Shown here piece after piece: positions 2,692-42,692 of a stretch of 46,821 nt of DNA. Source of the stretch: an uncultured Chlorobiaceae bacterium (GTDB taxonomy: Bacteria > Bacteroidota > Chlorobiia > Chlorobiales > Chlorobiaceae); the NCBI GenBank assembly GCA_903859055.1, contig CAIOLC010000302.1, positions 1-46,821 of the forward strand, in the 5' to 3' direction. The notes beneath the pieces are model-generated. The model was given only the letters and a program-made list of their open reading frames with translations, did no database searches and was not told the origin of the DNA. Numbering within the stretch: the stretch's first letter is position 1; each line of letters begins with the position of its first letter. The position numbers were made by a program, and so were the translations under genes.

Positions 2692-2718
2692 AATGGCTGA
2701 CTCCGGAGTTGGTGAGCA

Positions 2719-3180: not shown

Positions 3181-3211
3181 GATTCATCTCCATTTCGGTC
3201 GGTTCAGTTGT

Positions 3212-3340
3212 TCATTTATCATCGTCAAGCATTCGGTGTTTGGGCCCCTCAATCCGCTCTTTTCTTTTCGGGTTGAAGTAGTAAAAGATTATTCCTGCCA
3301 TAACCAGAGCAAGCAGCGAGGTGAAGAGAAAGTATCCCAT
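3212..3340 (-). CDS. ccoQ: CcoQ-like small membrane protein (42 aa)
   Basis: Reverse strand MGYFLFTSLLALVMAGIIFYYFNPKRKERIEGPKHRMLDDDK*; one TM then basic tail; below ORF-track length cutoff; located between ccoO and ccoP. Confidence 0.8.
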   Translation of the reverse strand: MGYFLFTSLLALVMAGIIFYYFNPKRKERIEGPKHRMLDDDK

Positions 3341-3352
3341 AGTCTGACGAGG

Positions 3353-4024
3353 TTATTGATTCTTCTCTATACTCTTGACATCCCTTCCGAGCTTCTGGAC
3401 ATAGGCCACCAGGGCATCCATCTCTGTCAGCTCTTTGCGCAGTTCCGGAGGAGTGACGACGTTACGACTCTCTTTCGAGGGGTAATTTTCATCAGCCACT
3501 TTAGCGCGATACTCCTCAAGCTGCTGCTTCACCATCGCCTCGGTGTATCCATAGCCAAGCACAGTGGTTTTTTTGAAGGAGTAGCTGGTATCGAGCCGAT
3601 TCTTTGCAAGCCAGAAATAGGGGGGCATATTTGACTTTTCAAACATTCCTTGTGGTCTCTTGAAGTGCGTGTAATGCCATGAATCAGGATACTTTCCCCC
3701 GACCCGGTTCAGATCGGGGCCGGTGCGCTTTGAGCCCCAGAGAAATGGTCGGTCATAGGCGAACTCCTCAGGTTTCGAGTACTCACCATAGCGAAGCACC
3801 TCTGTCCGCAGTGGCCGCACCGTCTGGGTATGGCAGTTATTACACCCTTCACGCATATAGATATCGCGCCCCTCCTGTTCAACAGCCGTGTAGGGTTTGA
3901 TGTATGCGCTGACAGGTTGTGTCGAAGGCATAAAGAGAGGAATAAAAACGGTGACCGTGGTACCAATCAGGATGACAGCGGCTGAAAGGATGGCAAAAAC
4001 AACCGGTTTTGAAGTGATTCCCAT
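3353..4024 (-). CDS. ccoO: cbb3-type cytochrome c oxidase subunit II (CcoO)
   Basis: REGCNNCHTQTVRPLRTEVLRYGEYS, GPDLNRVGGKYPDSWH. Confidence 0.95.
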   Translation of the reverse strand: MGITSKPVVFAILSAAVILIGTTVTVFIPLFMPSTQPVSAYIKPYTAVEQEGRDIYMREGCNNCHTQTVRPLRTEVLRYGEYSKPEEFAYDRPFLWGSKRTGPDLNRVGGKYPDSWHYTHFKRPQGMFEKSNMPPYFWLAKNRLDTSYSFKKTTVLGYGYTEAMVKQQLEEYRAKVADENYPSKESRNVVTPPELRKELTEMDALVAYVQKLGRDVKSIEKNQ

Positions 4025-4039
4025 GATGGCAGCTCCTGT

Positions 4040-5446
4040 TTATAAAATTGACGGTGACGCTTTTCCCGGCTCTTGCTTCTGGCGGACGGTCATGACCAGA
4101 TTCCAGGCAAAAATAAGTATCCCGACAAAGAAGATGACCCCTGCTCCGAAGCGGATCTGATAGTAGGGGTAGAGTGAGGCAACCGTATCAAGAAAATTGT
4201 ACATGAGCGATCCATCGGGATTTGTTGCCTTCCACATGGCACCCTGCTGAATTCCGGCAATCCACATCGCCGATGTCCAGACGATCTGGCCAACCATCAT
4301 CAGCCAGAAATGGATGTTTGCAAGCTTGACACTGTAAATCTCCCTGTCGTAGATACGGGGAATCATGTAGTAGAAGGAGGCTGAAATGATCATGGTTACC
4401 CAGCCCATAGTCCCCATGTGGACATGGCCCGGAACCCAGTCGGTGTAGTGAAAGAAGGCACTCAGGGTTCTTAGCCCCTGAAGTGGCCCCTGAAGGGTCT
4501 GAAGCCCGTAAAAGGTGATGCCTGCAATAAAGAACTTGACCAGATAGTTGGTGCGCATCTGATCCCAGTTGCCATTGAGGGTGTAGTAGCCGTTGACGAC
4601 CGATCCCCACGATGGCGCAATCATAAAGAGGCTGAATCCCATAGCCACCGTCTGGAGCCACTCGGGCAACGGGCTGAGCATGAGATGGTGGGCACCTGTC
4701 CAGAGATAGGCAAAGTTCAACGACCAGAATGAGACGATGGAGAGGCGATGGCTGTAGATCGGCAGGTTTGAGACCTTGGGAAGAAAATAGTAGAACATCG
4801 CAAGGATGGGAACCGTAAAGATAAATCCTACAACGTTATGGCCATACCACCACTCCACGTTGGCATCGTTTGCTCCTGAATAGATGGTATAGGACTTGAA
4901 GAGGGATATGGGGACTTCAAGGTTGTTGACGATATAGAGAATGGCAATGGCAACCGTCATGGCAATAATGTACCAGAGAGAGATGTACATCTGCTTCTCC
5001 TGCCGTTTAATCAGCGTCCCAAAGACGTTGATGGCAAACATCACCCAGAAGATAACAACCCCGATATCAATCGGCCACTCAAGTTCAGCATACTCTTTGG
5101 TGGTGTTCATGCCCGCAAAAAGGCTCAACGCTCCAAGGGCCAGTACCGTATTGAACAGGTAAAGATGTGCCTGGGCAAGCCGGGGAAAGGCAATCGGCGT
5201 TCTGGTCAGCCGTTGCAGCATGTAATAGGTCGCGGCAAAAATGGCTGCGAGGGAGAAACCGAGCCCCATTCCGTTCGTATGAACCACCCGAAGCCGTCCG
5301 AAGCTGAGCCAGGGGGTAAGATTCAGCGCCGGATTGAACATTTCGAAGGCAATCCAGAGGCCTACAGCCAAACCAACAAGCAGCCAGAAGAGTGCTGAAA
5401 AAGCAAAACCCCGGACCACCCTGTAGTTGTACCCTCCGTCGCTCAT
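4040..5446 (-). CDS. ccoN: cbb3-type cytochrome c oxidase subunit I (CcoN)
   Basis: Multi-TM heme-copper oxidase: RVVHTNGMGLGFSLAA, WWYGHNVVGFIFT, TDWVPGHVHMGTMGW. Confidence 0.95.
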   Translation of the reverse strand: MSDGGYNYRVVRGFAFSALFWLLVGLAVGLWIAFEMFNPALNLTPWLSFGRLRVVHTNGMGLGFSLAAIFAATYYMLQRLTRTPIAFPRLAQAHLYLFNTVLALGALSLFAGMNTTKEYAELEWPIDIGVVIFWVMFAINVFGTLIKRQEKQMYISLWYIIAMTVAIAILYIVNNLEVPISLFKSYTIYSGANDANVEWWYGHNVVGFIFTVPILAMFYYFLPKVSNLPIYSHRLSIVSFWSLNFAYLWTGAHHLMLSPLPEWLQTVAMGFSLFMIAPSWGSVVNGYYTLNGNWDQMRTNYLVKFFIAGITFYGLQTLQGPLQGLRTLSAFFHYTDWVPGHVHMGTMGWVTMIISASFYYMIPRIYDREIYSVKLANIHFWLMMVGQIVWTSAMWIAGIQQGAMWKATNPDGSLMYNFLDTVASLYPYYQIRFGAGVIFFVGILIFAWNLVMTVRQKQEPGKASPSIL

Positions 5447-5605
5447 ATCTCCTCCAGATCAGTTTATTTGGATTACAAAGGAAATGTTACAACAAGTTTT
5501 TCTCTCGACCAAGCCAAAAACTCTTGTTTGAACGGTAAAGATCGTGATAAAATCAAAGGAACAAAAAAAACTTTTATCTGTGAGTTATAATCGATGTATT
5601 TCTTG

Positions 5606-5780
5606 TCTGAACCATGATTCGCTTGATTCGCTTGATGACATGATGGGCCTGATAAGGAGTCTGATGGGTGAGTGACACCTTGTCAGAACCATGATTCGCT
5701 TGATAACTTGATGGGCATGATTGTTGTGATAAAAAAATCATGGTACATCCGATAATCATGCGAATCATGGTTCAAGACAA
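5606..5780. repeat. Interspersed repeat with terminal inverted repeats (copy A)
   Basis: gtctgaaccatgattcgcttgatt... on the left and ...aatcatgcgaatcatggttcaagac on the right are inverted copies; an extra direct copy lies internally near 5681-5705. Confidence 0.75.
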
Positions 5781-5801
5781 GGGTTGAATCGTGCTGTCTC
5801 T

Positions 5802-6815
5802 TCAGTACTCCAGCTCCGAATCCCCCGTCACGCGCTGCCTGAACACCCAGTAGCTCCATCCCTGATACATGATAATAATCGGTAAAAAAACTAGGGCGAC
5901 CACGGAGACAAGGCCGAGGGAGTAGGCTGATGATGAGCTGTTGTAGATGGTGAGGCTCCAGGGCGGGTTGAGGCTTGAGACCAGCAGGCGCGGGTAGAGA
6001 CCCATGAAGATGGTGATGGTGGAGAAGGCAATGGCGACGGAGGTCATGGCAAATGCCCATCCGGCAGCGTTTTTTTGCAGCAGAAAAATCACCGAGATGA
6101 GGGCCAGTACACTGAAAACCGGAATAATGCCGGGATTGACACCGAGGTGGCGGAAGAGGTCCGTTTCGATGGTGGTGTAAGCCATAAAGAGTATGCAGAG
6201 AAGTGTAGCCGGTGCCCAGAGCTTTTTGGCGAACTCCATCGCCCTCTCATGAAGCACACCGGTGGTTTTCAGGGTGAGAAATATGGCTCCGTGAAGGGTA
6301 AAAATCAAGGTTGCCGTGATGCCGCAGAGCAGGGCATAGGGGTTCAGCAGATTCAGGAGACCGCCGGTATAGTGCATGGAGCCATCCACCGGCACCCCCC
6401 GGATGAAATTGGCCAGGGCGATGCCCCAGAGGAGCGCAGGCACAACGCTTCCCCCGAAGATGCTCCAGTCCCAGAAGCTTCGCCATGCCGGGTTGTCGCG
6501 CTTGCTGCGGAACTCGAAGGCAACACCACGGAATATCAGGGCGACAAGCATGATCAGTACTGGCAGATAAAGGGCACTGAAGAGGGTGGCATACCAGTCC
6601 GGAAATGCCGCGAACATCCCGCTGGTGGCGGTAATCAGCCACACCTCATTGCCATCCCAGAAGGGGCCGATGGTGTTGATGATGGTGCGTCGCTGACGAT
6701 CATCACGGCTTATGAAGGGGAGCAGGATACCTACGCCGAAGTCGAACCCTTCGAGCACAAAAAAGCCGATAAAAAGAAAGGTGATGATGATAAACCAGAG
6801 TGTTTGCAAATCCAT
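5802..6815 (-). CDS. cydB: Cytochrome bd ubiquinol oxidase subunit II
   Basis: MDLQTLWFIIITFLFIGFFVLEGFDFGVGILLPF..., GPFWDGNEVWLI. Confidence 0.96.
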   Translation of the reverse strand: MDLQTLWFIIITFLFIGFFVLEGFDFGVGILLPFISRDDRQRRTIINTIGPFWDGNEVWLITATSGMFAAFPDWYATLFSALYLPVLIMLVALIFRGVAFEFRSKRDNPAWRSFWDWSIFGGSVVPALLWGIALANFIRGVPVDGSMHYTGGLLNLLNPYALLCGITATLIFTLHGAIFLTLKTTGVLHERAMEFAKKLWAPATLLCILFMAYTTIETDLFRHLGVNPGIIPVFSVLALISVIFLLQKNAAGWAFAMTSVAIAFSTITIFMGLYPRLLVSSLNPPWSLTIYNSSSSAYSLGLVSVVALVFLPIIIMYQGWSYWVFRQRVTGDSELEY

Positions 6816-6852
6816 TGCTCATCGTTTTTTCAGGTTATTCAGGGGCTACACG

Positions 6853-8208
6853 TTATTCCCCACTCTCAATGCCAGCCACCGCATACTTTTTCATCAGCAG
6901 AAAGTCAGTGACGGCAAGCGCGGCATAGAGCATGACAAAGACTGCGAGAGAGATCATCATCTCGCCACGGCTCACCACCGATACCGGTGAAAGACCGTTT
7001 TCCGTTTTCAGCAGCCCAAAGACCAGCCAGGGCTGGCGACCCATCTCCGCAAGAAGCCACCCCGATGAGTTGGCAAGCCAGGGGAGCAGTATCGACCAGA
7101 AGAGCAGTGCGCCCGTCACTGGCGAAAAAGTGTAGCTCTCTCTGATCACCTTGTAGAGAGCGAGTAGCGCGATGAGGAGCATCAGTGTGCCCGCTCCCGC
7201 CATAACCCTGAAGCTCCAGTATGAGGTGACAATAGAGGGCATGTAGTTGCCGGGACCGTATTGCACTTCATACTCTTTTTGCAGGTTTTTGATGCCTCTC
7301 ACCTCACCCTCAAAGGAGTTGTAGGCAAGAAAGGAGAGCAGTTTTGGCACCCGTATCGAAAAAACATCTTTCAGCCCCTCTTCATCACCTATAGTGAAGA
7401 GAGAGAAGCTTGCCGGATTTTCGCTCTCCCAGAGCGCCTCTGCCGCAGCAACTTTCATCGGCTGGGTTTTAAGCAGATGCTGCATCTGGGAGTGGCCGGC
7501 AAGAATCACTACAACTGTCCCGATAAAGGCAAAGATGGCCCCAAACTTCAGCGATGTTTCATACCCGTTTCGGTTAGTGCCCTTTCTCATCAGGTGCCAG
7601 GCGCTGATGCCGATTACAAAAAATCCGGCAGTGACAATGCCACCAGCCAGCACATGGGGGAACTGTTGCCAGACGTGGGGATTGAAGATGAGCGCCATAA
7701 TATCCACCAGCTCAGGCCGGGAAGCTCCAGCGGCCATGGTGTAGCCGGTTGGTGACTGCATAAAGGAGTTGGCGACCAGAATCCAGAAGGCCGACATGGT
7801 TGAGCCAAAGGCGACAATCCAGATTGATGCGGCATGGAGCGTCTTGGGCAGCCTCTCCCACCCGAAGATCCAGATCCCGAGAAAGGTCGATTCTACAAAA
7901 AAGGCAAGCAGTGTCTCAATGGCCAGCGGGACACCAAAAATATCGCCGACAAACCGGGCATACTCCGACCAGCTCATCCCGAACTGGAACTCCATCACAA
8001 TGCCGGTGACCACCCCGACGGCAAAGTTGATCAGGAAAAGATGGCCCCAGAATTTCGTCAGTTGCTTGTACTTCTCCTTGCCGGTTTTCACATAAGCGGT
8101 CTCAAGAATCGCCGTAAAGATGGAGAGACCAAGTGTCAGCGGGATAAAGAAGAAGTGGAAGATTGAGGTGAAGGCAAACTGCGTTCGCGCAAGAAAAAGG
8201 GTATCCAT
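6853..8208 (-). CDS. cydA: Cytochrome bd ubiquinol oxidase subunit I
   Basis: LARTQFAFTSIFHFFFIPLTLGLS, GVVTGIVMEFQFGMSWSEYARFVGDIFG, GRQPWLVFG. Confidence 0.96.
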   Translation of the reverse strand: MDTLFLARTQFAFTSIFHFFFIPLTLGLSIFTAILETAYVKTGKEKYKQLTKFWGHLFLINFAVGVVTGIVMEFQFGMSWSEYARFVGDIFGVPLAIETLLAFFVESTFLGIWIFGWERLPKTLHAASIWIVAFGSTMSAFWILVANSFMQSPTGYTMAAGASRPELVDIMALIFNPHVWQQFPHVLAGGIVTAGFFVIGISAWHLMRKGTNRNGYETSLKFGAIFAFIGTVVVILAGHSQMQHLLKTQPMKVAAAEALWESENPASFSLFTIGDEEGLKDVFSIRVPKLLSFLAYNSFEGEVRGIKNLQKEYEVQYGPGNYMPSIVTSYWSFRVMAGAGTLMLLIALLALYKVIRESYTFSPVTGALLFWSILLPWLANSSGWLLAEMGRQPWLVFGLLKTENGLSPVSVVSRGEMMISLAVFVMLYAALAVTDFLLMKKYAVAGIESGE

Positions 8209-8471: not shown

Positions 8472-9536
8472 TTACTCCACCATCAAAGCAGCAAGCCCCT
8501 CGACATAGTTGCCGACGACCGCCTTCTTATCCGTGATGATACCGCGCAAAAATTGGGCGGGTGTCACGTCAAAGGCGTAGTTGAGTACTGGCGTGGTTGG
8601 CGTGGCAACCTGGGTGCCGAAGATGGTGCGCAGCTCGTCGGCGTTGCGCTCTTCAATCGGAATGTAGCTGCCATCGGGAATGGTGATATCGATGGTTGAG
8701 ACCGGCGCGGCGATGTAGAAGGGCAGCTTGTGGTGGTAGGCACTGATGGCATGGGCACAGGTGCCGATTTTGTTGGCCGTGTCGCCGTTGGCGGCAATGC
8801 GGTCGGCGCCGACAATACCGAAATCAATCATCCCTCTTTGCATCAGGAAAGCCGATGAGGAGTCGGAGATGGAGACAAACGGGATGCCATCATGCTGAAG
8901 CTCCCAGGCGGTGAGGCGCAGCCCCTGCAGCAGTGGACGGCTTTCGGCGGTGATGACGCGCTCAATCAGCCCCTCCTGCCAGGCCAGCCGGATAACACCC
9001 AGTGCTGAGCCGGTGCCGCAGCAGGCGAGCGTGCCGGTGTTGCAGTGGGTCAGCACGTTGAGCTTGCGGGTTTTCAGGATGTGGGCAAGGTCAATCTTGA
9101 TCTGATCGACACCGTGGCGCGACATGAGATCGCAATTGGCGATTTCGTCAGCATGAATTTTAAGCGCGGCATCATTCATTTTGGCAAAAAGTGCCTCGAT
9201 GGTGTCGGCTTCAAAGTTTTCAGCATAGACCTTTTTCAGGCGTGCTGCCGCAAAAAAGAGGTTGACTGCGGTCGGGCGCGACGCTTCAACTTCAGCTACA
9301 AGTGACTTGAAAAAGGGGGGAAACTCCTCTTTCGTCCCCTTGAAGCTGTTGATGCCGAGAATAATGGTGTAGGCAGCGGCCACCCCAATCAGCGGAGCAC
9401 CACGCACAGCAAGCGTCTTGATGGCCTCAATGGCCTCCTTGTACTCTTTTGTGGCAACATAATTCTCCTTGAGCGGCAGATAACGCTGGTCGAGGTAGTG
9501 AAGGGTGTTCTCTTTGAACGATATGGCATCTATCAT
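8472..9536 (-). CDS. mtnA: S-methyl-5-thioribose-1-phosphate isomerase
   Basis: AVRGAPLIGVAAAY, THCNTGTLACCGTGSALGVI, ESRPLLQGLRLTAWEL, GADRIAANGDTANKIGT. Confidence 0.95.
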   Translation of the reverse strand: MIDAISFKENTLHYLDQRYLPLKENYVATKEYKEAIEAIKTLAVRGAPLIGVAAAYTIILGINSFKGTKEEFPPFFKSLVAEVEASRPTAVNLFFAAARLKKVYAENFEADTIEALFAKMNDAALKIHADEIANCDLMSRHGVDQIKIDLAHILKTRKLNVLTHCNTGTLACCGTGSALGVIRLAWQEGLIERVITAESRPLLQGLRLTAWELQHDGIPFVSISDSSSAFLMQRGMIDFGIVGADRIAANGDTANKIGTCAHAISAYHHKLPFYIAAPVSTIDITIPDGSYIPIEERNADELRTIFGTQVATPTTPVLNYAFDVTPAQFLRGIITDKKAVVGNYVEGLAALMVE

Positions 9537-9551
9537 ACTCTATCAGAAGGA

Positions 9552-10379
9552 TTAAAGGTTGGCGACAATTGATTTGAAAAGAGAGGTCATTTTTGGCTCA
9601 GCATGGCCGGAGACCTCGATGATCTCTTCAATGCTGACCGATTTGAGGCAGTCGGGGAAGCACTCGTCGGTGATGATGGACATGCCGAAGACTTCGGTTC
9701 CCTGATGCACGGCGGCAATCACCTCCGGCACGGTTGACATGCCGACCACGTCGGCACCAAGGATGCGCAACATGCGGTACTCTGCGCGGGTTTCGAGACA
9801 GGGGCCGGAGAGGGCGACATAGACACCGCGCTGCACCTTGATTCTGTGGTCGAGCGCAACCCTTTCGGCAAGTTCAAGAATGCGGGGCGAGTAAGGGGCA
9901 CAGAGGTCTGGAAAGCGTGAACCGATCTCAGGATCGTTCGGGCCGATCAGCGGGTTGCCGCCAAGCAGGTTGATGTGGTCGTCAATCAGCATGATCTCGC
10001 CTTTTTTGTAGGCAGGGTTCAGGCCGCCGCAGGCGTTGGTGATGCCGAGGGTTTTGACTCCGAGATGTTTCATCACCCGAATCGGGAAAACAATCTGGTG
10101 CATGGAGTACCCTTCGTAGAAGTGGAAGCGTCCCTGCATGGCAACAACATTTTTGCCTGCAAGTGTTCCGAAAATCAGTTTGCCATGGTGGGTCTCAACG
10201 GTGGAGACAGGAAAATTGGGAATATCGCTGTAGTCGAGGGAAAAGTCAATATCAATCTCCTTGACAAGAGCACCAAGGCCTGTGCCCAGCACAATTCCCA
10301 CGGGATAATTGGCGGATGTTTTTTTTCTGATAAAGGCAACTGCCTCCTGAATCTTTGCCTGCTGTGCGATCATGATCAA
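9552..10379 (-). CDS. Purine nucleoside phosphorylase
   Basis: GIVLGTGLGALVKEI, ETHHGKLIFGTLAGKNVVAMQGRFHFYEGY, NACGGLNP, GVYVALSGPCLETRAEYRML, VGMSTVPEVIAA. Confidence 0.93.
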   Translation of the reverse strand: MIMIAQQAKIQEAVAFIRKKTSANYPVGIVLGTGLGALVKEIDIDFSLDYSDIPNFPVSTVETHHGKLIFGTLAGKNVVAMQGRFHFYEGYSMHQIVFPIRVMKHLGVKTLGITNACGGLNPAYKKGEIMLIDDHINLLGGNPLIGPNDPEIGSRFPDLCAPYSPRILELAERVALDHRIKVQRGVYVALSGPCLETRAEYRMLRILGADVVGMSTVPEVIAAVHQGTEVFGMSIITDECFPDCLKSVSIEEIIEVSGHAEPKMTSLFKSIVANL

Positions 10380-30383: not shown

Positions 30384-31126
30384 TTACTGTGTGCCGCAGG
30401 TTGGGCAGAAGCTGTCACGCTGGACTTTGATGGTGCGGATTTTCATGGTGAGGGTGTCGCAGGTGAGCAGGGTATTGGTGAGCGGGGTGCCAATGGAGAG
30501 AATATTTTTTATGGCTTCGGTGGCCTGGATTGAGCCGATGATGCCGGGTACGGCGCCAAGGGGGCCTTTGGGGATGGCGGCAGTGGGGGCACCCTCTTCG
30601 TGAAAGAGGCAGTGGTAGCAGGCGGTGGCACCGGGGTGGACAGTCATGGTCTGGCCCCGGAACTCCCGGATTCCCGCATGGGAGTAAGGTTTTGCTGTGT
30701 TGTGGCAGGCTGTATCTATCAGAAATTTTGAGTCGAAGTTGTCGGTGGCATCGACGATAAAGTCATAAGGCTCAAAAATTTCTGTTGCATTGTTGGCGGT
30801 GAGTCGAAAGGGGTAGAGGTTGAGCTTTATCTCAGGGTCAAGGGCAACAAGTATCTCCTTTGCAGAGGCCACCTTGTTTTGTCCGATAGAGTCGGTGGTA
30901 TGGAGAATCTGGCGCTGGGGTTGCTGAGATCGACCTTGTCGCCGTCCATGATTCCGATGGTGCCGATGCCTGCTGCGGCAAGATAAAAAGCAACAGGGGA
31001 TCCGAGCCCACCGGCACCGATGACCAGTACTTTTGCTTTGAGGAGCTTCTCCTGTCCCTCCTCGCCGATTTCGCTCAGGGAGAGGTGACGGGCATATCGT
31101 TCGCGCTGGTTGTTGTTCAGTGGCAT
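30384..31126 (-). pseudogene. thiF: ThiF/MoeB/HesA-family adenylyltransferase, frameshifted
   Basis: Two ORFs (30827-31126 and 30384-30872) form one ThiF-family protein; frame break near 30917-30921: DGDKVDLSN | [30 protein letters not shown]. Confidence 0.85.
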
Positions 31127-32256
31127 GGCTCTGCTTCAGGAGTTATTGGGGTGGCTGACCTGTCGGCTTCTCTTTCATGATGTATGGTGGCAGATGCTCC
31201 GTTATACGAGGGTTCCCAGTTTTTGAAGACCGGATCAATGTTCATTGCGCGCATTGCAGCACAAAACTCCCGGGCGGTGCGATCATCAGATATTTCAAAT
31301 TGTCCTTTCTCTCTCTGCTCTTCGCTCTCCCCCTCTTCGTTTTCACAATATCCACCGACAGTAGTCTTGCTCTCAACGCTCATTCTGGTAATTCCCAGCC
31401 CGGCCATACCGTCACGAAAGGTGGCACTCTCCCTTGTTGAGAGTACCAACTCTGTATCCGGGAGAGCAATGCGGAAGGCAAAGATGATTCTGGCAAGCAG
31501 GTGATCGTCCACCGGAAAGGGAGGCTCATAGCCGCCGGTCTGGGGCCTCATGCGCGGGAAGGAGAGGGAGAGGCCGGCTCGCCAGTACGTTCTACCGAGG
31601 TGGCGAAGGTGACGGTAGAGGCAGAGAGCATCCTCAACGGGATCGGAGAGGCCAAGCAGTACGCCAAGCCCAACGCTTTTTATTCCCCCTTCAAGGGCGC
31701 GTGCCGGAGTTTCGAGGCGGTCGATAAAATCTTTTTTGGGGCCCCAGCGGTGCAGCTCCTCGTATCGTTCCCGGTTGTAGGTCTCCTGGTAGATGGTGAT
31801 GCCGGTGCAGCCGCAGTCGGCCAGCCTCCGGTACTCGCTGACACTCATCGGGAAGGCCTCAACCGAGACACGTGGCATCTCCTCTGCAGCAATGGCAACG
31901 CTCCGGTGGAGATAGTCGAAATCGGCAGCAGCGGTGCGTTCGCCGGTGAGCAGCAAAACGTCGCTGATGCCAAGCTTTCTCATGGCGGCCAGTTCGCGGC
32001 GTATCTCCTCCGGTTCAAGACGGTGGCGCGGCGTTTTGCGGTCGGAGGCAAAGCCGCAGTAGGCGCAGCCGCTTGAGCAGTAGTTTGAGAGGTAGAGCGG
32101 AGCGTAAAGCGTCATGGTGCGTCCGAAACGGCGCAGGGTCATCGCTCTCGATTCGGCAGCCAGTGCTTCGAGCGAACGGGGTGATGCAGGCGCAAGCATG
32201 GCGGCCAGGGCCGCAGTGTCACGCGTGTCGGTAAGCCATTCCGGCAGAGCGTTCAT
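31117..32256 (-). CDS. thiH: 2-iminoacetate synthase ThiH (radical SAM)
   Basis: [46 protein letters not shown]. Confidence 0.95.
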
Positions 32257-33029
32257 CAGTAGGTTCCAAGAAAAGTGAGTGGGCTGGTTGCCACCGCAGA
32301 GCCGCTTTTCTCCATCAGTCCAGCCATGAATGCTTTTCTTCCCGCTGCAACGGCTTCGGCAAATGCCTCAGCCATGACAGGTGGGTTGCCTGCCGCCGCC
32401 ACAGCGCTGTTGACCAGTACCGCTTCGCATCCCATCTCCATGGCGTGTGCCGCTTCGGAAGGGGAGCGCAGCCCGGCATCGACGATCACCGGAATGGTGC
32501 TTTCCCGGATGATAATATTCAGCATTTCGGAGGTGGCAAGCCCCTGTCCGCTTCCGATGGCCGAACCAAGTGGCATCACCGATGCGCAGCCAACCTCCTC
32601 CAGCCGCTTGGCAAGCACCGGATCAGCGGCGATATAAGGCATCACCAGAAAGCCCTCCTTTGCCAGAATCCGGGCAGCCTCGAATGTTTCAATCGGGTCG
32701 GGCATCAGGTGCTGAGGATTCGGATGAATTTCGACCTTGATGAAGGGGCTCCCCGAGAGTTCCCTGGCAATATGTGCTGCACGTACTGCCTCCGCAGCGG
32801 TCGATGCGCCGGAGGTATTGGGCATGAGGGTGATTCCCTCAATGGCCGAAAGGGGGCCGAAGAGGTCATCTTCAGCCTGCTGGCGGTTGAAGCGGCGCAA
32901 CGCCACGGTGACCAGTTGTGCGCCTGAAGCCCTCACGGCTTCGAGCATCACCCGGGAGTTGCTGAATTTCCCGGTGCCGAGAATCAGGCGCGAAGAGAAA
33001 GTATAAGAGCCAAGCTTTAAAACGTCCAT
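32256..33029 (-). CDS. thiG: Thiazole synthase
   Basis: [75 protein letters not shown]. Confidence 0.97.
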
Positions 33030-33413: not shown

Positions 33414-34592
33414 TTACGGGGTTCCAAGGGCGTTCAGCAGATCAGCCTCCAGATCCTCGGCATTTTCCAGACCGACAGAGAGACGCACCAGATTGTCGGT
33501 GCATTTTCGCCGGTCACGCTCCGCTTGCGAAAGTGCCCAGAGCGTCATTTTTGCCGGGGAGGATATGAGCGACTCGACTCCGCCAAGGCTGTCGGCAAGC
33601 ACGAAAAGCTTGATGGTGGCGAGCAGCTTTTTCACCGCCGGAAGCCCCCCTTTCAGCGAGAATGTTACCATGCCGCCGAAACCGCTCATTTGCGTTTTTG
33701 CCAGCTCGTGCTGTGGGTGTGAAGCAAGGCCAGGGTAAAAAACCTGCTCCACCGCCGGATGGCCTTCAAGCATTTTGGCAAGGTGCATTGCGGTTGCCTC
33801 ATGCTCCTTCATGCGGATCTTCAGTGTTTTCAGGCCGCGCAGAATCAGCCAGCAGTCCCAGGGGCCGGGCACGGCTCCCGCAGCGCCCTGATAGTTTTTG
33901 ATCGCGGTGTGAATCGCCGTCTCTGATGTTATCACAGCGCCGCCGATAACGTCGCTGTGCCCACCGAGATATTTGGTGGTGCTGTGGACCACAATATCCG
34001 CCCCAAGCTCAAGGGGGCGCTGAAAATAGGGGCTGGCGAAGGTGTTGTCCACCGCCAGCAGAATGCCCCGCTCTTTGGCAAGCGAGGCAAGCGCCCGTAT
34101 GTCGCAAAGCTGAAGCAGCGGATTGCTTGGAGTCTCAATCCAGATCAGCTTCGTCGCCGGTGTGATGCAGGCTTCGTAGCTCTCCATGGATTCATTGTCG
34201 GTGTAGCTGGTGGTCACACCCCAGGGGCGCAGAAGCTGCTCAAAAATGCGATAGCTTCCACCGTAAATGTCGTTGCCCGCCACAATATGGTCGCCGGGTT
34301 TCAGCACCTGCAGAGCCGCCATGGTTGCCGCTACCCCGGAGCCAAAGGCAAGACCATACTTGCCATTTTCAAGCAGCGCAAGGCTCTCTTCAAGTGCTTT
34401 TCTCGTCGGGTTGCCAATTCGCGAATAGAAAAACTCACTCCGCTCGTCAAGGCTGTCGCGTCCAAACGTTGAGGTCTGATAGACAGGAACCGTGACGGAG
34501 CCTGTCTGCGGGTCAGGCGCTTGTCCGTCATGGATGGCAAGGGTTTCAAAGTGCATGGAGTGTGGTTTACTTTTCCGAAAAAATGAGGCCAA
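33414..34592 (-). CDS. PLP-dependent transsulfuration enzyme (cystathionine gamma-synthase/lyase family)
   Basis: YSRIGNPTRKALEESLALLENG, VDNTFASPYFQRPLELGADIVVHSTTKYLGGHSDVIGG. Confidence 0.92.
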   Translation of the reverse strand: MASFFRKSKPHSMHFETLAIHDGQAPDPQTGSVTVPVYQTSTFGRDSLDERSEFFYSRIGNPTRKALEESLALLENGKYGLAFGSGVAATMAALQVLKPGDHIVAGNDIYGGSYRIFEQLLRPWGVTTSYTDNESMESYEACITPATKLIWIETPSNPLLQLCDIRALASLAKERGILLAVDNTFASPYFQRPLELGADIVVHSTTKYLGGHSDVIGGAVITSETAIHTAIKNYQGAAGAVPGPWDCWLILRGLKTLKIRMKEHEATAMHLAKMLEGHPAVEQVFYPGLASHPQHELAKTQMSGFGGMVTFSLKGGLPAVKKLLATIKLFVLADSLGGVESLISSPAKMTLWALSQAERDRRKCTDNLVRLSVGLENAEDLEADLLNALGTP

Positions 34593-34670
34593 AGATAACC
34601 ATTATTATTTCTCATGCTCTCCAAAACGTCACGTTCACCAGGAAAACGTCACGTTTTGAAATGCACAGTG

Positions 34671-36581
34671 CTATCTCCGCTGAATATGGTTAATCACATC
34701 AGCAAGCCGGTCGATCTCATCTTTCGTGTTGTAGAAGGCCAGCGACGGGCGCACGGTGCCCTCAACGCCGAAGCGGCGCAATGATGGCTGGGTGCAGTGG
34801 TGGCCCGCACGGACGGCAATGCCTTCGCGGTCGAGCAGCTTGCCAACCTCTTCGTTGGGCAGAGTGTTCAGCACAAAGGAGAGCACGCCCACCTTGTTTC
34901 TTGCCGTACCAATCAGACGCAGGCCGGGAATGCGAATCAGCTTTTCGGTGCCGTACTCAGTCAGCTCGTGCTCGTATTGGGCAATGTTTTCAAGACCGAT
35001 TTTGCGCACGTAGTCGAGCGCGGCACCGAGGCCGATGGCATCGCCGATTGACGGGGTGCCAGCCTCAAATTTGGCCGGTGCCTCGTTATATACCGTCTCC
35101 TCAAAGCGCACATCCTTGATCATGTTGCCGCCACCCTGCCACGGGGGCATCACCTCCAGCAGCTCCTTTTTGCCATAGACCACGCCGATGCCGGTTGGTG
35201 CAAAAATCTTGTGGCCAGAAAAGACGAAGAAATCGGCATCAAGATCCTGCACGTTTACCGGGATATGCGCTACCGACTGGGCACCATCAATCAGCACCCG
35301 TGTGTCGTACCGCTTGGCCAGTTGAATCATCTCCTTGACTGGCAGAATAGTGCCAAGGCCGTTTGATGCCTGTGTCAGCGAGACAAGTTTCGTTCGTGGC
35401 CCAAGCAGTTTGGTGTACTCTTCGAGGATGATTTCGCCCCGATCGTTGACCGGTACCACCTTGATGCGTGCTCCCTTCTCCTGTGCGACCATCTGCCATG
35501 GCACAATATTGGCATGATGCTCAAGAATGGAGAGCACAATCTCATCGCCGGGCTGGAGAAACTTGCGTCCCCATGTTTGAGCCACCAGGTTTATCCCTTC
35601 GGTGGTGCCGCGGACATAGATAATTTCCGAGGTTGACCCTGCGCCGATAAACTGGCGAATCTTTTCGCGAGCCCCCTCATAAGCGTCGGTGGCGCGTGCC
35701 GCAAGCGTGTGCGCTCCCCGGTGGATATTGGAGTTGTCGGTAGCATAAAAGTGGGCGACCGCGTTAATGACGCTCAGCGGTTTCTGCGTTGTGGCAGCGT
35801 TGTCGAACCATGCAAGCTGTTTTCCGTGAATCTTTTGGTGTAAAACAGGAAAATCCTTGCGAATGGTGGCAACATCAAACCCCTCAGGCTGATGCACAGG
35901 CTGGCGTGGTTCGCGCAGAAAATAGTATGGCTCAGCCGGAGCGTCAGGGAGGCTGAAGGGCAGAGAGCTGCCGCCGGGCGTTTCGGGGCTGCCATTCGGC
36001 CAGGCTGGCGCTGGTGCCTTGCCGGGGAGTTCGGGGTGGGTGCCGATTGGGCTGTTCAATCCATACCCTGCAGGCGACTCTCCGCCACGAAGCGACTGAA
36101 AGACAAACTCCAGCACCGGATCGCCCTGTTGCTCAGTAAACTCCCTGTACAGCTTTTCGGCATAGCACTCACCCTCCGGCTGCGCTGGCAGTGAGCGGCG
36201 CAAAAATTTGTCGAAGCCGCCCGGGTTCTCTGTTTTTCCGGAATAGCTCTGTTCGTCAGTCAGCCTGTTGGCGTGGTGCTCCAGCGGTTCCGGCTCTTTT
36301 TCGGATGCCGTGGGCAAAAAATAGAAATCCTGCGCCGGCAACAGCGGAGCGGCGTTGGCGGGAGGCTCAGCACCATCCTGCGCCCCAGCATAAGGTACGC
36401 CATCAAACAGCGTCGTGGTTGCTGCTGATGGAGCTGTCGCTGCGTCGCTCTCGCTTCGCGGAACACTTCCGGCTTCCGGTGCTTCGTTAAACAGACGGCT
36501 CGCAAGCTGCGCAATAAAGGTGGGGTTCAGAGCGTCGCTCCCCTCTCCTGTAATGTTCGGATGTTGATATGCTTCTGGCAT
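34671..36581 (-). CDS. SufS-type cysteine desulfurase with long N-terminal extension; probable Family 2 encapsulin cargo
   Basis: SufS core FDNAATTQKP, ILEHHANIVPWQ, DGAQSVAHIPVNVQDLDADFFVFSGHKIFAPTGIGVVYG, RAGHHCTQPSLRRFG; preceded by a ~240-residue Pro/Ala/Glu-rich extension; directly downstream of an encapsulin gene. Confidence 0.92.
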   Translation of the reverse strand: MPEAYQHPNITGEGSDALNPTFIAQLASRLFNEAPEAGSVPRSESDAATAPSAATTTLFDGVPYAGAQDGAEPPANAAPLLPAQDFYFLPTASEKEPEPLEHHANRLTDEQSYSGKTENPGGFDKFLRRSLPAQPEGECYAEKLYREFTEQQGDPVLEFVFQSLRGGESPAGYGLNSPIGTHPELPGKAPAPAWPNGSPETPGGSSLPFSLPDAPAEPYYFLREPRQPVHQPEGFDVATIRKDFPVLHQKIHGKQLAWFDNAATTQKPLSVINAVAHFYATDNSNIHRGAHTLAARATDAYEGAREKIRQFIGAGSTSEIIYVRGTTEGINLVAQTWGRKFLQPGDEIVLSILEHHANIVPWQMVAQEKGARIKVVPVNDRGEIILEEYTKLLGPRTKLVSLTQASNGLGTILPVKEMIQLAKRYDTRVLIDGAQSVAHIPVNVQDLDADFFVFSGHKIFAPTGIGVVYGKKELLEVMPPWQGGGNMIKDVRFEETVYNEAPAKFEAGTPSIGDAIGLGAALDYVRKIGLENIAQYEHELTEYGTEKLIRIPGLRLIGTARNKVGVLSFVLNTLPNEEVGKLLDREGIAVRAGHHCTQPSLRRFGVEGTVRPSLAFYNTKDEIDRLADVINHIQRR

Positions 36582-36651
36582 AAAGGTACAGTGATAACCC
36601 ATTGCACTCATGGTCATGAGCTGCAATGGGCTGGTTGGTCAAAGAGCGATT

Positions 36652-38109
36652 CTATTTTACTTTTGTTCCCGATTTGCGATGCTCGTAATCGTGGTAGTAT
36701 CCCACTTCGACATTTTCGAGAATTGCAAGTGCATCGTCGGTCAACACCGCCAGCGACGAGTAAAGCGTCAGCAGATAGGAGGCGACACCAAGCTTGTCGA
36801 GCCCCATCAACCGTGCCGAAAGGCTTGGGCTGATTTCACCCGGAATTCCCGCCTGATGCAGACCAACCACACCCTGCTCATTTTCGCCGACACGGACAAG
36901 GATGATGTTGGTGGTGCCGTGGCCCGACTTGCTGTTTTTGTTGATCTCAAGTTTGTCGCTCGGAATCAGCGGTACGCCACGCCATGTCAACACCGGTGTT
37001 CCGAAGAGGTTGATGGTGGCAGGAGGCACGCCGCGCCAGGTGCATTCGCGCTCAAAAGCGGCGATGGCTTTGGGGTGCGCGATAAAGAAGGCCGGTTTTT
37101 TCCACACCTTGGTGAGCAAATCATCAAGATCATCCGGTGTCGGTGTGCCATACCGGGTGCTGATGCGCTGACCGGGATCGGCAGAGTAGAGCAGGCCAAA
37201 CTCTCTGTTATTGATAAACTCCCACTCCTGACGCTCCTTGATGCCCTCAATCGTCAAGCGCATCTGCTGCTCAATCTGGTTGAAGGGCTCGTTGTAGAGG
37301 TCGGAGACTCTGGTATGGACGCGGACGACCGTCTGGATAGCCTGCAGCGAATATTCCCTCGGTTTGTTGGAGTAATCGACATAGGTTTCAGGAATTTCAA
37401 CATCCTCTTCAAAGCCTGCAATCAGGTCGATATGTTTTTCGCCATGCTTGTTGACCGTTGAGCGGATTTTTAGGTACTCGGCAACCGCTGTCTGGAATGA
37501 ACCCTTGAGAGCGGGAAACTCTTTAAAGAGCTTTTCAATATCAACGCTGGAGAGGGAGAAAAACGATCCTGGTGTGATGGTGCGAATGGTGACGGAGGAT
37601 GGCTTCCCGGATACCAGCTCCTCTTCGCCATAGTACTCTCCCTCTGAAAGGAGGGCGATGCGCAGATCCTCACCATGCAGCCCCTTGCTGAGAATTTCAA
37701 CCTGGCCATGGGCAATAATAAAAATTTTGTGGCGGTCTTCGCCCTCAAGAAGCAGGGTGTTGCCCAGTTCAGCCTCTTCAAGCACAAATTTCTGGCTGAT
37801 GAGGTTGATGATGTCGTTGTCAAACGAGGCAAAAAGAGGGATACTTTTCAGTGCTTCAGGTCTGAAGGAGGCGATACCATCATGAAAGTCGATCCCGATA
37901 CGCTCTGGTTTCTGCAGCTCTATCTTTGTGCGGTTGACGCGGTAGGTGCCCGAAGAGACATGAACCCACGGGAGCAGCTTCAGCAGCCACCTCGGGGTTA
38001 TGGAGTTCATCTGGGGCGGCGTTTTGGTCGTATTGGCCAGATTTCTTGCAACGTGGGTCGTTACGCTACGCTGCAGGTGGCTGTTCGTTTCTGGTTGTGT
38101 GTTTGACAT
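36652..38109 (-). CDS. Family 2 encapsulin shell protein with internal cyclic-nucleotide-binding-like domain (2B type)
   Basis: HK97-like SrpI-type motifs (YSLQAIQTVVRVHTRVSDLYNEPFNQIEQQMRLTIEGIKERQEWEFINNREFGLLY, FIAHPKAIAAFERECTWRGVPPATINLFGTPVLTWRGVPLIPSDKL, LVRVGENEQGVVGLHQAGIPGEISPSLSARLMGLDKLGVASYLLTLYSSLAVLTDDALAILENVEV) with a cNMP-like insert; start set to ATG at 38109. Confidence 0.92.
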   Translation of the reverse strand: MSNTQPETNSHLQRSVTTHVARNLANTTKTPPQMNSITPRWLLKLLPWVHVSSGTYRVNRTKIELQKPERIGIDFHDGIASFRPEALKSIPLFASFDNDIINLISQKFVLEEAELGNTLLLEGEDRHKIFIIAHGQVEILSKGLHGEDLRIALLSEGEYYGEEELVSGKPSSVTIRTITPGSFFSLSSVDIEKLFKEFPALKGSFQTAVAEYLKIRSTVNKHGEKHIDLIAGFEEDVEIPETYVDYSNKPREYSLQAIQTVVRVHTRVSDLYNEPFNQIEQQMRLTIEGIKERQEWEFINNREFGLLYSADPGQRISTRYGTPTPDDLDDLLTKVWKKPAFFIAHPKAIAAFERECTWRGVPPATINLFGTPVLTWRGVPLIPSDKLEINKNSKSGHGTTNIILVRVGENEQGVVGLHQAGIPGEISPSLSARLMGLDKLGVASYLLTLYSSLAVLTDDALAILENVEVGYYHDYEHRKSGTKVK

Positions 38110-38154
38110 AGCAAATAATAATGTGTTAATGGTAATCAATAAACATGGTCCGTT

Positions 38155-39066
38155 TTAAATGCCAAGACCATCCGTGAACGTGGTTTCAACCGCTTTCTGC
38201 TGCAATACCCTTGAATCAGGCGGCACACTTCTTGTCTGCCAGACGTTGCCGCCAATAACCGAGTTTCTGCCGATTGTTATTCTGCCGAGAATGTTGGCGT
38301 TTGAATAAATCACCACGTTATCCTCGATAATCGGGTGACGCGGCACATTTTTGACCGGATTGCCTTCGTCGTCGAGGGCAAATTTTTTGGCACCAAGGGT
38401 GACTCCCTGGTAGAGTCGCACGTGGTCGCCGATAATGCAGGTTTCGCCAATCACGACACCGGTGCCATGGTCGATGCAGAAAAAGTCACCGATATGGGCG
38501 CCGGGGTGAATGTCAATACCGGTCTCCGAATGGGCCATCTCCGCAATAATTCTGGGGATCAGGGGCACTCCCAGCGAGAGCAGGGCGTGCGCAGCCCGGT
38601 AATTGATCATGGCCCTGATGGACGGGTAGCAGAAGATGATCTCTCCATAGTTCTTTGCCGCCGGGTCACCGTCATAGATAGCTTTCACATCAGTCCAGAG
38701 TTTTCTTCTTATTTCAGGCAGTGTTCCAATAAACTGGCGGGCATTTCCTGCGGCTATTTCTGCCGCATTTTCGGAGTTGTTGTGTTCAGTGTCAAAATGC
38801 TGAACACTGAGAAGCTGCTCTTCAAGCAATCCATACAGCTTTTCTATCCGTACGCCCAGAAAGTGGTGGCGCGACTGTTTGCGGAGCACAGGACCGCCAA
38901 AGTAACCCGGAAAGATTATTGACCGGAGGAGCTCTACAATCTCCTTTACCTTATCAATAGAGGGGAGCGGATGTTCACGATGCTCCGGATCCTCCCTTTC
39001 AGTATCATTGGGGGCTGACAATAATTGTATTGCCTCATCAATGATGCCGTTATTGTTGCTGTCCAT
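38155..39066 (-). CDS. Serine O-acetyltransferase (EpsC/CysE type)
   Basis: Left-handed beta-helix hexapeptides: GIDIHPGAHIGDFFCIDHGTGVVIGETCIIGDHVRLYQGVTLGA. Confidence 0.94.
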   Translation of the reverse strand: MDSNNNGIIDEAIQLLSAPNDTEREDPEHREHPLPSIDKVKEIVELLRSIIFPGYFGGPVLRKQSRHHFLGVRIEKLYGLLEEQLLSVQHFDTEHNNSENAAEIAAGNARQFIGTLPEIRRKLWTDVKAIYDGDPAAKNYGEIIFCYPSIRAMINYRAAHALLSLGVPLIPRIIAEMAHSETGIDIHPGAHIGDFFCIDHGTGVVIGETCIIGDHVRLYQGVTLGAKKFALDDEGNPVKNVPRHPIIEDNVVIYSNANILGRITIGRNSVIGGNVWQTRSVPPDSRVLQQKAVETTFTDGLGI

Positions 39067-39124
39067 GTATTAGTAATCTTCCCGGTTCTGGATAAATTTC
39101 CCTGGTACAATAAAAGTTATCGCA

Positions 39125-40078
39125 TCAGTAGTTCACTGCGTCATTGTCGAACTGGTAAAGCAGTGTCGAGAGGTAACGCTCACCGGTATCCGGCAGAATG
39201 ACCACAATACGTTTGCCTGTATTCTCTTCGCGCAGTGCAAGCTGGAGTGCCGCGTAGACGGCAGCACCTGATGAAATTCCCACAATCAGCCCCTCTGTTT
39301 TAGCCAGTTGGCGACCGGTGCGAAGTGCATCTTCGTTTTTGACTGGGATAATTTCATCAATAATTGAGGTATTGAGGATATCAGGCACAAAGCCGGCACC
39401 AATACCCTGTATTTTGTGTGGACCAGGTTTGCCACCAGCAATAACCTGGGAGTCGAATGGCTCTACAGCCACGATTTTGACATCAGGGTTGCGCTGCTTG
39501 AGCACCTCACCAACGCCAGTAATCGTCCCTCCGGTACCAACTCCACTGACAAAAATATCAACATTGCCATCAGTGTCATTCCAGATCTCTTCGGCTGTGG
39601 TTTTGCGGTGAATCTCCGGATTCGCAGCGTTTTTAAACTGTTGGGGCAGATATGAATTGTCGTACTCTGCATGGAGTTCGTCTGCCTTTCTGATAGCACC
39701 CACCATTCCCTCCGGGCCAGGTGTCAGTACCAGTTCGGCACCGAGTGCCTTCAGCAGATTTCTGCGTTCAAGACTCATGGTTTCCGGCATGGTGAGGATC
39801 AGGCGATACCCTTTTGCTGCGGCAATAAATGCCAGTGCAATGCCGGTATTGCCGCTGGTCGGTTCGATGATGATACTATCCTTGTTGAGCAGTCCCTTTG
39901 CTTCAGCATCCTCAATCATGGAATAACCGATACGATCTTTGACACTTCCACCCGGGTTGAAATATTCAAGTTTTCCAATAATGGTTGCCCTGGTGTCGTG
40001 TTCGCGATTGAAGTTTCCCAACTCCAGAAGAGGAGTGTTACCGATAAGATCGGTCAGTTTTTTTGCAATGTGTCCCAT
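39125..40078 (-). CDS. cysK: Cysteine synthase A (O-acetylserine sulfhydrylase)
   Basis: [53 protein letters not shown]. Confidence 0.96.
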
Positions 40079-40183
40079 AGCTCTCAGTTATTTATAAGGT
40101 TATAAATGAATCAAGGTAATCAATAAATGTACCGATGTAAATCACACAAAAAAGGTAGCTCCCTCTACCGCAAATATGGTATC

Positions 40184-40837
40184 TCAGATATGATACTCGA
40201 TATTGTCAATCAATCCTGCCTTGATGGCGTACATGAGCAGTTCCGGACTGCTGGAGACGCCAAGTTTGCGGAAAATGTTCTTTCGATGTGTCATGACGGT
40301 ATGAAAGCTGATATGTTTTTTTGTTGCAATCTCTTTTGTTGAAAGTCCACTGGCAATTTGTCGGACGATTTCAATTTCCGAAGGTGTCAGAATGCTGATA
40401 TCTTCAGTAGGCGCATCCTTTTTCAGGAGTATGTCGAGCACCTCTCCCGAGTAGTATTTTTTCCCTTTCAGGGCCGCATCAATGGCCTGCTCAATCTCAT
40501 CACGCTCGTCGGTTTTCAGGATAATATTTTTGATACCAACGTCATTAAGCTCCTTGATCTTTACAGAGGTGATGGCGTTTGTCAGAATAATTGTCACTGT
40601 TTCCGGATGTCTGTTTTTCAGCTCACCCAGCTCACTGATTGAATCATAATCGAAAAGAGCATAATCAGTGATGACCAGGGCAATCACCTCCTTTTCAAGA
40701 TATTGTTGCAGGCCACTCTTCGTTGATACCGTATAAAACGCACGGAACTTGTGAGACAACATCGAAGAGAGTGCCTCGTTTGTTAAAAACTGCCTGTCAG
40801 CCAGCACAACAGAGAGATTGCTGTAGTTGTTTTTCAT
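40184..40837 (-). CDS. LuxR/NarL-family response regulator
   Basis: N-terminal receiver, C-terminal HTH ILTPSEIEIVRQIASGLSTKEIATKKHISFHTVMTHRKNIFRKLGV. Confidence 0.92.
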   Translation of the reverse strand: MKNNYSNLSVVLADRQFLTNEALSSMLSHKFRAFYTVSTKSGLQQYLEKEVIALVITDYALFDYDSISELGELKNRHPETVTIILTNAITSVKIKELNDVGIKNIILKTDERDEIEQAIDAALKGKKYYSGEVLDILLKKDAPTEDISILTPSEIEIVRQIASGLSTKEIATKKHISFHTVMTHRKNIFRKLGVSSSPELLMYAIKAGLIDNIEYHI

Positions 40838-40846
40838 GGTTAGAGT

Positions 40847-42142
40847 TTAGTTTCCAGCTCGCTCAAGTGCCTCGTCAAGCGCCTCGATAAGGTCGTCAGA
40901 ATGTTCAAGGCCAACAGAGAGGCGGATCAGATCGGGTGAAAGCCCACTTTGCAACTGCTGTTCCGCAGTTAACTGGCTGTGCGAGGTGCTTGCCGGGTGG
41001 AGGATCAGGCTCTTGGCATCGCCCACATTGGCAAGGTGTGAGAAGAGATTGATGTTGTCGATAATGTTCACGGCCGCATTGTAACCCCCCTTGACGCCAA
41101 AAACCACCATTCCGCCAAACCCGTTCTTCAGATCTTTCGAGGCTTTCGGGTAAGAGGGATCATTTTTCAGGCCTGGATACCGAACCCATGCCACTGCCGG
41201 GTGCTGTGCAAGATGTTCTGCAACTTTGAGAGCATTTTCTGAATGGCGGGCCATCCGCACGGGCAGGGTTTCAATGCCTTGAAGCAATATCCAGGAGTTA
41301 TCAGGAGAAATGCAGGCCCCAAGGTTCCTGAGCGGGACGGTGCGCACCCGAAGAGCGAATGCAATCGGGGCGAGTGGTTCAGGGAGATCAATGCCCCAGC
41401 GCAGTCCATGGTAGTTACTGTCTGGTTCAGTAAAAAGCGGATGCCGTCCACCCTTCCAGTTAAAGCTCCCCGCATCGGTGATGATCCCGCCAATACCTGC
41501 GCCGTGGCCACCAAGCCATTTGGTCAGGGAGTTAATGACAATGTCAGCTCCAAGCTCGATGGTTTTGAGCAGATAGGGGGTGGTGAAGGTTGCATCGACA
41601 ATCAGCGGAAGGCCGTTGCGGTGGGCAACTTCAGCAATCGCCTTTACATCGGTATAGTCAAGCACAGGGTTGCCGATGGTTTCAATGAAAAGAGCCCTTG
41701 TCTTTTCTGTAATGGCCTTTTCAAAATTGGCAGGATCCTTCGGATCAACAAAGGTGACGGTAATGCCAAGTTTTGGCAAAATGGCATCAAACTGGGTATA
41801 GGTGCCGCCATAGAGGTTGTTGGCTGCAACAATATTATCACCGGCTTCAGCAAGCGTGATGATGGTGTTGAAAATTGCCGCTGTTCCCGATGCCAGTGCA
41901 ACCGAAGCGGCTCCTCCCTCAAGTTGGGTCACCCGCTGCTCAAGAGTATCAGTTGTCGGATTCATCAGGCGGGTGTAGATGTTTCCGAGTTCTCTCAGCG
42001 CAAAGAGGTTTGCGGCATGTTCGGTGCTCTTGAAAAGATAGGATGTGGTGCGATAGACCGCCACTCCCCGCGAAAGCGTTGCGTCAACCGGCTGGCCCGC
42101 ATGAAGGGCAAGTGTTTCAAAGCGGTAGTGTTCAGAACTCAT
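40847..42142 (-). CDS. O-acetylhomoserine aminocarboxypropyltransferase/sulfhydrylase
   Basis: YRFETLALHAGQPVD...RGVAVYRTTSYLF, YTRLMNPTTDTLEQRVTQLEGG, INSLTKWLGGHGAGIGG; start corrected to ATG at 42142. Confidence 0.95.
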   Translation of the reverse strand: MSSEHYRFETLALHAGQPVDATLSRGVAVYRTTSYLFKSTEHAANLFALRELGNIYTRLMNPTTDTLEQRVTQLEGGAASVALASGTAAIFNTIITLAEAGDNIVAANNLYGGTYTQFDAILPKLGITVTFVDPKDPANFEKAITEKTRALFIETIGNPVLDYTDVKAIAEVAHRNGLPLIVDATFTTPYLLKTIELGADIVINSLTKWLGGHGAGIGGIITDAGSFNWKGGRHPLFTEPDSNYHGLRWGIDLPEPLAPIAFALRVRTVPLRNLGACISPDNSWILLQGIETLPVRMARHSENALKVAEHLAQHPAVAWVRYPGLKNDPSYPKASKDLKNGFGGMVVFGVKGGYNAAVNIIDNINLFSHLANVGDAKSLILHPASTSHSQLTAEQQLQSGLSPDLIRLSVGLEHSDDLIEALDEALERAGN

Positions 42143-42185: not shown

Positions 42186-42665
42186 TTATTGTTGATTGTT
42201 TGACTGCACTCTCTTGCCGAAAAGCCTGAATCGCTGCAGATTGAACTGGTAAAAGAGGAAGCAGCCAAAGCAGAAGCCGGCCAGTGCCACCGAGGCGGCA
42301 ACAGCCACTACTCCTGAAAAGATCCAGCCAACCAGAGGCGATCCCGAGAGAAAAGCGATCTGTGCGCTGCCAAGCAAAACTGCTGCTATGGAGTTATTGA
42401 ATCGCATCAGCTTCGGATCTTCTGTGGCTGCTGTAAGGTTTTGCCTGGCAAAAAGTCGGGATCCAAGAAAGAAAACAAGGCTTCCTTTTCGTCCAAACAC
42501 CGCTGCCAGCAGGATAATAATAAAAAGGAGGGTTACTATCAGAGGTTGCTGGAAGAGCAGGGCGATTAAAACCCCGGCCAGCAGCGCGGCGCGGTTCAGC
42601 TTCACTATTGGCAGTGGTATTCCAGTGCAGAGTGCAGCTTCACTTGATGATGATGTTGTAGACAT
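42186..42665 (-). CDS. DUF4395-like integral membrane protein
   Basis: Several TMs; LNRAALLAGVLIALLFQQPLIVTLLFIIILLAAVFG; MRFNNSIAAVLLGSAQIAFL. Confidence 0.75.
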   Translation of the reverse strand: MSTTSSSSEAALCTGIPLPIVKLNRAALLAGVLIALLFQQPLIVTLLFIIILLAAVFGRKGSLVFFLGSRLFARQNLTAATEDPKLMRFNNSIAAVLLGSAQIAFLSGSPLVGWIFSGVVAVAASVALAGFCFGCFLFYQFNLQRFRLFGKRVQSNNQQ

Positions 42666-42692
42666 AAATTCTGTTTTAGGTAAAAATGACAA

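Follow-up and report, generated by a model that had tools for sequence, protein, structure and literature searches.

Family 2B encapsulin shells that occur with a cysteine desulfurase and a serine O-acetyltransferase (SAT) gene are an already known kind of locus. A total of 199 Family 2B operons with a desulfurase cargo were counted in nine phyla, with SAT and rhodanese as their most enriched neighbours (Andreas and Giessen 2021; PMC8346489), and the preliminary description of the locus reported here, which called such an arrangement unusual, therefore overstated the case. Two-component Family 2B shells are known from S. lydicus (PMC12407261). Among Family 2A systems, SrpI/CyD of Synechococcus elongatus (PDB entries 6x8m and 6x8t) is induced by sulfate starvation, the N-terminal domain of the cargo drives loading into the SrpI shell and encapsulation raised the desulfurase activity; growth was unaffected in the knockout (PMC8049743). 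That a Family 2A system stores elemental sulfur is reported as a cited result in PMC10960027. Among the papers searched, none contains both encapsulin and Chlorobium.

In this study, we analysed a window of 46,821 nucleotides from an uncultured Chlorobiaceae bacterium (contig CAIOLC010000302.1 of assembly GCA_903859055.1) and compared its genes with a set of 86 Chlorobiaceae genomes. Family matches in the window establish a single-shell Family 2B encapsulin together with a cysteine desulfurase as its putative cargo. Like the Family 2B operons surveyed in PMC8346489, the locus combines a cNMP-like insertion in the shell, a SufS-type desulfurase with an extended N-terminus and a SAT neighbour; unlike them, its run also includes cysK, MetY, a cystathionine gamma-synthase/gamma-lyase (CGL/CGS)-type gene and thi genes, and it has a single shell gene and a green sulfur bacterial host that, by its gene content, assimilates sulfate, and the Chlorobi word stem is absent from the main text of that paper. 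SrpI/CyD resembles the present pair in the HK97 part of the shell (59.5% identity across residues 226-477), in the type of cargo and in a phototrophic host that assimilates sulfate, but SrpI has no cNMP-like insert and is plasmid-borne, whereas the present pair adjoins the genome's sole SAT and CysK genes. The two-component shells of S. lydicus share the Family 2B architecture but not the single shell gene, and the order shell-shell-desulfurase is found in Planctomycetes-type relatives (for example L052 and L055) and not in the Chlorobiaceae loci examined.

The core of the locus comprises six unbroken open reading frames on the minus strand. MetY, an O-acetylhomoserine/O-acetylserine sulfhydrylase (40847-42142; TIGR01326, 589 bits, cut-off 495), is followed by a LuxR/GerE-type response regulator (40184-40837; PF00196, 58 bits; PF00072, 30.6 bits), which adjoins MetY/CysK also in the shell-less loci L100, L101 and L112, by CysK, O-acetylserine sulfhydrylase A (39125-40078; TIGR01139, 466 bits, cut-off 351), and by a long-type SAT (38155-39066; TIGR01172, E = 2.7e-47), the closest solved relative of which is 3f1x (E = 2.5e-102). 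The SAT ends in GLGI, and a terminal isoleucine is the type of tail by which SAT binds CysK. The shell gene (36652-38109) and the desulfurase gene (34671-36581) complete the series. The coordinates, strand and identities first assigned to these six genes are borne out by intact reading frames and by a strong family match for each. Their description as a co-directional run holds as far as direction is concerned; they may not form a single transcript, given a hairpin resembling a terminator between the regulator gene and cysK (40169-40154), a short stem of a kind that is frequent in shuffled sequence. No riboswitch upstream of metY matched Rfam at the gathering threshold. A DUF4395 gene lies upstream of metY (42186-42692, minus strand, in the window) in the majority of Chlorobiaceae loci, whether or not they have the encapsulin, and in the window a strong terminator-like hairpin (42727-42699) is present just upstream of it.

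The run continues in the same direction beyond the desulfurase with genes left out of the preliminary description. A PLP enzyme of Cys/Met metabolism of the CGL/CGS type (33414-34556) matches PF01053 with 490 bits and NF005871 with 497 bits, below the cut-off of 513 for the latter. It is followed, all on the minus strand, by thiG (32256-33029) and thiH (31117-32256), both named from sequence reading and synteny, and by a frameshifted thiF (30384-31126), homologues of which have about 247 residues. Residues 1-69 and 71-246 of ThiF are encoded in two frames here and in one intact gene in the relative G084 (L206); the frameshift is either a sequencing error or the mark of a young pseudogene. Elsewhere in the window (8472-10379, minus strand), genes of the IF-2B and nucleoside phosphorylase families lie side by side and perhaps serve methionine salvage.

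The shell gene encodes 485 residues and matches the Family 2B shell model NF041163 (573 bits, cut-off 400), the SrpI-like family PF19307 (385 bits) and, at residues 124-207 of the long reading frame, the cNMP-binding family PF00027 (45.6 bits). Alignment to SrpI (6x8m; phmmer E = 8e-111) falls into two blocks, residues 16-63 and 232-478, on either side of the insert. By homology, the protein is thus assigned the HK97 fold and is SrpI-like, with the cNMP-binding-like domain placed within the E-loop region; the HMM search proposed as a check matched an encapsulin family, and the 2B-like insert was confirmed with it. The AlphaFold model of the shell has a mean pLDDT of 45, the alignment of 18 close relatives being too shallow, and is usable for the inserted domain alone (blocks within residues 71-220, pLDDT 50-91). 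In that domain, Ser171 aligns with the phosphate-binding arginine, at a position that we take from the PRxA motif of CRP, and is invariant in the 18 relatives. Because a serine replaces this arginine throughout, the domain probably does not bind cyclic nucleotides, in line with other Family 2B inserted domains, which are reported not to bind them (PMC12407261). A two-component shell was considered for the window and rejected, as the genome has one PF19307 gene.

The desulfurase has 636 residues and matches the SufS model TIGR01979 (559 bits, cut-off 475). It aligns with nearly the whole of NF041166, a model of Family 2 encapsulin cargo desulfurases that is named for Family 2A cargo, at 788.8 bits against a cut-off of 800. 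Its ATG start at 36581 is conserved in 27 relatives. The N-terminal domain of about 234 residues is rich in Pro, Gly, Ser and Ala, a composition from which alone its disorder was judged, and is poorly conserved (mean conservation 0.54 versus 0.92 in the catalytic domain; 27 sequences) apart from the short islands LNPTFIAQLASRLFNEAPE and EPYYFLREP. These islands resemble the N-terminal motifs of the SrpI cargo, LARLANEFFS and AASPYYFLDG (PMC8049743), to which FIAQLASRLFNE and EPYYFLREP correspond here. The PLP-lysine motif SGHK and the catalytic motif RAGHHC are intact. The enzyme is likely a SufS-type encapsulin cargo with an extended, predicted disordered N-terminus.

Among the 86 genomes, 55 have a shell gene (51 above the NF041163 cut-off and four clear fragments), and all 51 full-length shells match the Family 2B model. 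Of these 55 genomes, 50 also have a SufS-type desulfurase, which none of the 31 shell-free ones has (Fisher p = 1.6e-18); in the five exceptions the shell genes are cut by, or lie near, contig ends. The desulfurase is directly downstream on the same strand for 48 of the 56 shell genes, and at least six of the remaining eight lie at the end of a contig or belong to a genome whose desulfurase is itself divided between contigs. This near-perfect linkage, together with the HMM matches and the solved homologues, upholds the original identification of shell and cargo. The nearest loci are all from Chlorobiaceae, with an identical gene order in C. ferrooxidans DSM 13031 (L018); the next-nearest are Planctomycetes-type loci with roughly 65-72% shell identity, several of them with two tandem shell genes. 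In five of the Planctomycetes-type loci (L052, L055, L056, L059 and L060), two tandem shell genes precede the desulfurase, a two-component Family 2B arrangement. The Chlorobiaceae shells form one clade.

Within the family, the shell-desulfurase pair is optional and was repeatedly gained or lost, since the shell requires at least 12 changes on the rpoB tree. Seven genomes have the metY-regulator-cysK-SAT-CGL-thiGH cluster, or most of it, intact at this locus without the pair. In the pair-less loci L099, L100, L101, L102, L103, L105 and L109, a spacer of about 12-95 bp stands in place of the interval that holds the pair in the window (34557-38154, minus strand); there the SAT stop directly precedes the CGL leader, still recognizable in the closest loci, and thiG and thiH are retained in the same direction. 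The pair is absent from this locus and present elsewhere with a second cysK in G051, G054 and G064. Such type B loci (L104, L106, L107 and L115) have the order cysK-shell-desulfurase without SAT or regulator, and G061 has both locus types, type A on C45 and type B on C99. Type A, the SAT-adjoining arrangement found in the window, is basal in the Chlorobiaceae shell clade, and the type A clade of the window may or may not derive from type B. The co-distribution of shell and desulfurase and the pair-less SAT-CGL junctions in Chlorobiaceae are new observations.

The host had been presumed to be a sulfide-oxidizing phototroph. No dsrA was found in its genome, a 306-contig draft, or in its nearest relative G084, and in the host genome a sulfite-reductase-like gene is lined up with cysH, cysD and cysNC; a sulfide-oxidizing phototroph of the dsr type is therefore not supported. 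In the photoferrotrophs C. ferrooxidans and C. phaeoferrooxidans, CysD, CysNC and CysH are present and DsrAB is absent (PMC5498476), and the gene content of the host matches the profile of such sulfate-assimilating photoferrotrophs. The reading of this encapsulin-bearing host as sulfate-assimilating and dsrA-less, from its genes, is a new observation. The gene cysD occurs in 42 of the 55 shell-bearing and six of the 31 shell-free genomes (raw p = 3e-7); on independent pairs of the rpoB tree, a mean of 4.5 pairs speak for and 0.6 against the association (median p = 0.22), which leaves a suggestive trend between shell and sulfate assimilation after tree control. Loss of dsrA as a driver of shell presence was also considered and rejected, as the association (raw p = 0.004) vanished when independent pairs from that tree were compared. 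The window further holds, at 1588-8208 on the minus strand, cbb3-type oxidase genes (COX1, FixO, cytochrome c and an Fer4 protein) adjoining both cytochrome bd oxidase subunits, so that genes for both oxidases occur in a presumed strictly anaerobic phototroph.

Several functions can be proposed for the pair. The best reading, in which we place about even confidence, is a cysteine-fed reservoir of sulfur(0) or persulfide attached to the only cysteine pathway of the cell. By comparison with solved relatives, the shell protein would form an icosahedral particle with the cNMP-like domains outside, and the conserved islands in the disordered N-terminal domain of the desulfurase would retain this enzyme within the particle. 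Sulfate would be reduced to sulfide by CysD, CysNC, CysH and the sulfite-reductase-like enzyme and incorporated into cysteine by SAT and CysK of the same run, and surplus cysteine would enter the shell and yield alanine and a protein persulfide. With no SufE acceptor, it is proposed, sulfur would accumulate within the shell as S(0) or polysulfide, from which it may later be freed as sulfide by thiols for MetY/CysK. The storage step is argued from the Family 2A precedent; to our knowledge, sulfur storage has been shown for Family 2A and not for Family 2B. SufE is the usual acceptor of SufS. SufE (PF02657), the one acceptor type covered by our search, was not found in 85 of the 86 Chlorobiaceae genomes, the window genome included, and its absence from these genomes is a new observation. 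The lone SufE of the set (G070:C46:58022-59651; L110, L212) lies directly upstream of a stand-alone SufS of 405 residues without the cargo N-terminus. Because the window genome is without SufE and has a separate NifS-type desulfurase, SufE-dependent Fe-S supply by the encapsulated enzyme appears unlikely, and the same two observations indirectly favour sulfur storage. An enzyme that feeds Fe-S clusters or thiazole synthesis with persulfide sulfur, with a shell that only stabilizes or activates it, would nevertheless suit the SufS-type catalytic domain with its intact Lys and Cys motifs, the downstream thiG, thiH and thiF genes and the gain in activity seen on encapsulation in S. elongatus (PMC8049743). 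For thiazole, G044, G073 and G085 keep the thiG/thiH/thiF cluster with neither a shell nor a SufS-type desulfurase found, so thiazole synthesis is independent of the pair, and as a whole we consider this supply role quite improbable.

With SufE-dependent Fe-S supply unlikely and thiazole synthesis independent of the pair, storage of sulfur(0) or polysulfide and a cysteine valve are left. In a valve, an enzyme that destroys cysteine would be confined by the shell, and excess cysteine would be turned into alanine and sulfide while the cytosolic pool is spared, with nothing stored. The protection of cytosolic cysteine by sequestration of the enzyme has been discussed for S. elongatus (PMC8049743), the run holds several Cys/Met enzymes and the pair adjoins the genome's only genes for cysteine synthesis; a soluble lyase such as the adjacent CGL-type enzyme could, however, do the same without a shell, and the Family 2A precedent accumulates sulfur. 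We judge a valve unlikely. Alternatively, the pair might happen to sit in a conserved sulfur-amino-acid cluster and work independently of SAT, CysK and MetY, as the persistence of the cluster without the pair and, in some genomes, the location of the pair at another site with a further CysK (type B; L104, L106, L115) would allow. Against such a coincidence, CysK immediately precedes the shell gene in type B copies and SAT does so in type A copies, a long SAT is directly upstream of 34 of the 56 shell genes, and a long SAT occurs in 52 of the 55 shell-bearing genomes versus six of the 31 shell-free ones. This run also supplies the single convincing SAT and the single CysK of the window genome, which is 94.75% complete. 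An incidental neighbourhood seems distinctly improbable to us.

The finding places a known kind of nanocompartment, a protein shell of viral descent with a sulfur-releasing enzyme as its likely content, in a lineage that, from its genes, is read as living on sulfate rather than on sulfide. The Chlorobiaceae amount to a natural experiment, in which related genomes with and without the shell-desulfurase pair can be compared at one locus, with the further advantages that SufE is absent, that the window genome has a single SAT and CysK and that a named photoferrotroph, C. ferrooxidans DSM 13031, is syntenic. What is added is a clean comparative system that makes the role of desulfurase encapsulins testable. 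A more specific proposal, which we advance tentatively and regard as rather doubtful, is that in a sulfate-assimilating, dsr-free, photoferrotroph-like Chlorobium the encapsulin would serve as a renewable intracellular sulfur reserve, refed through the adjoining SAT-CysK-MetY genes. Sulfur would then be parked as S(0) or polysulfide out of the reach of Fe(II), by which free sulfide would be lost as FeS. If this is true, such a reserve would differ, as a sulfur store, from the sulfur globules that classical green sulfur bacteria form.
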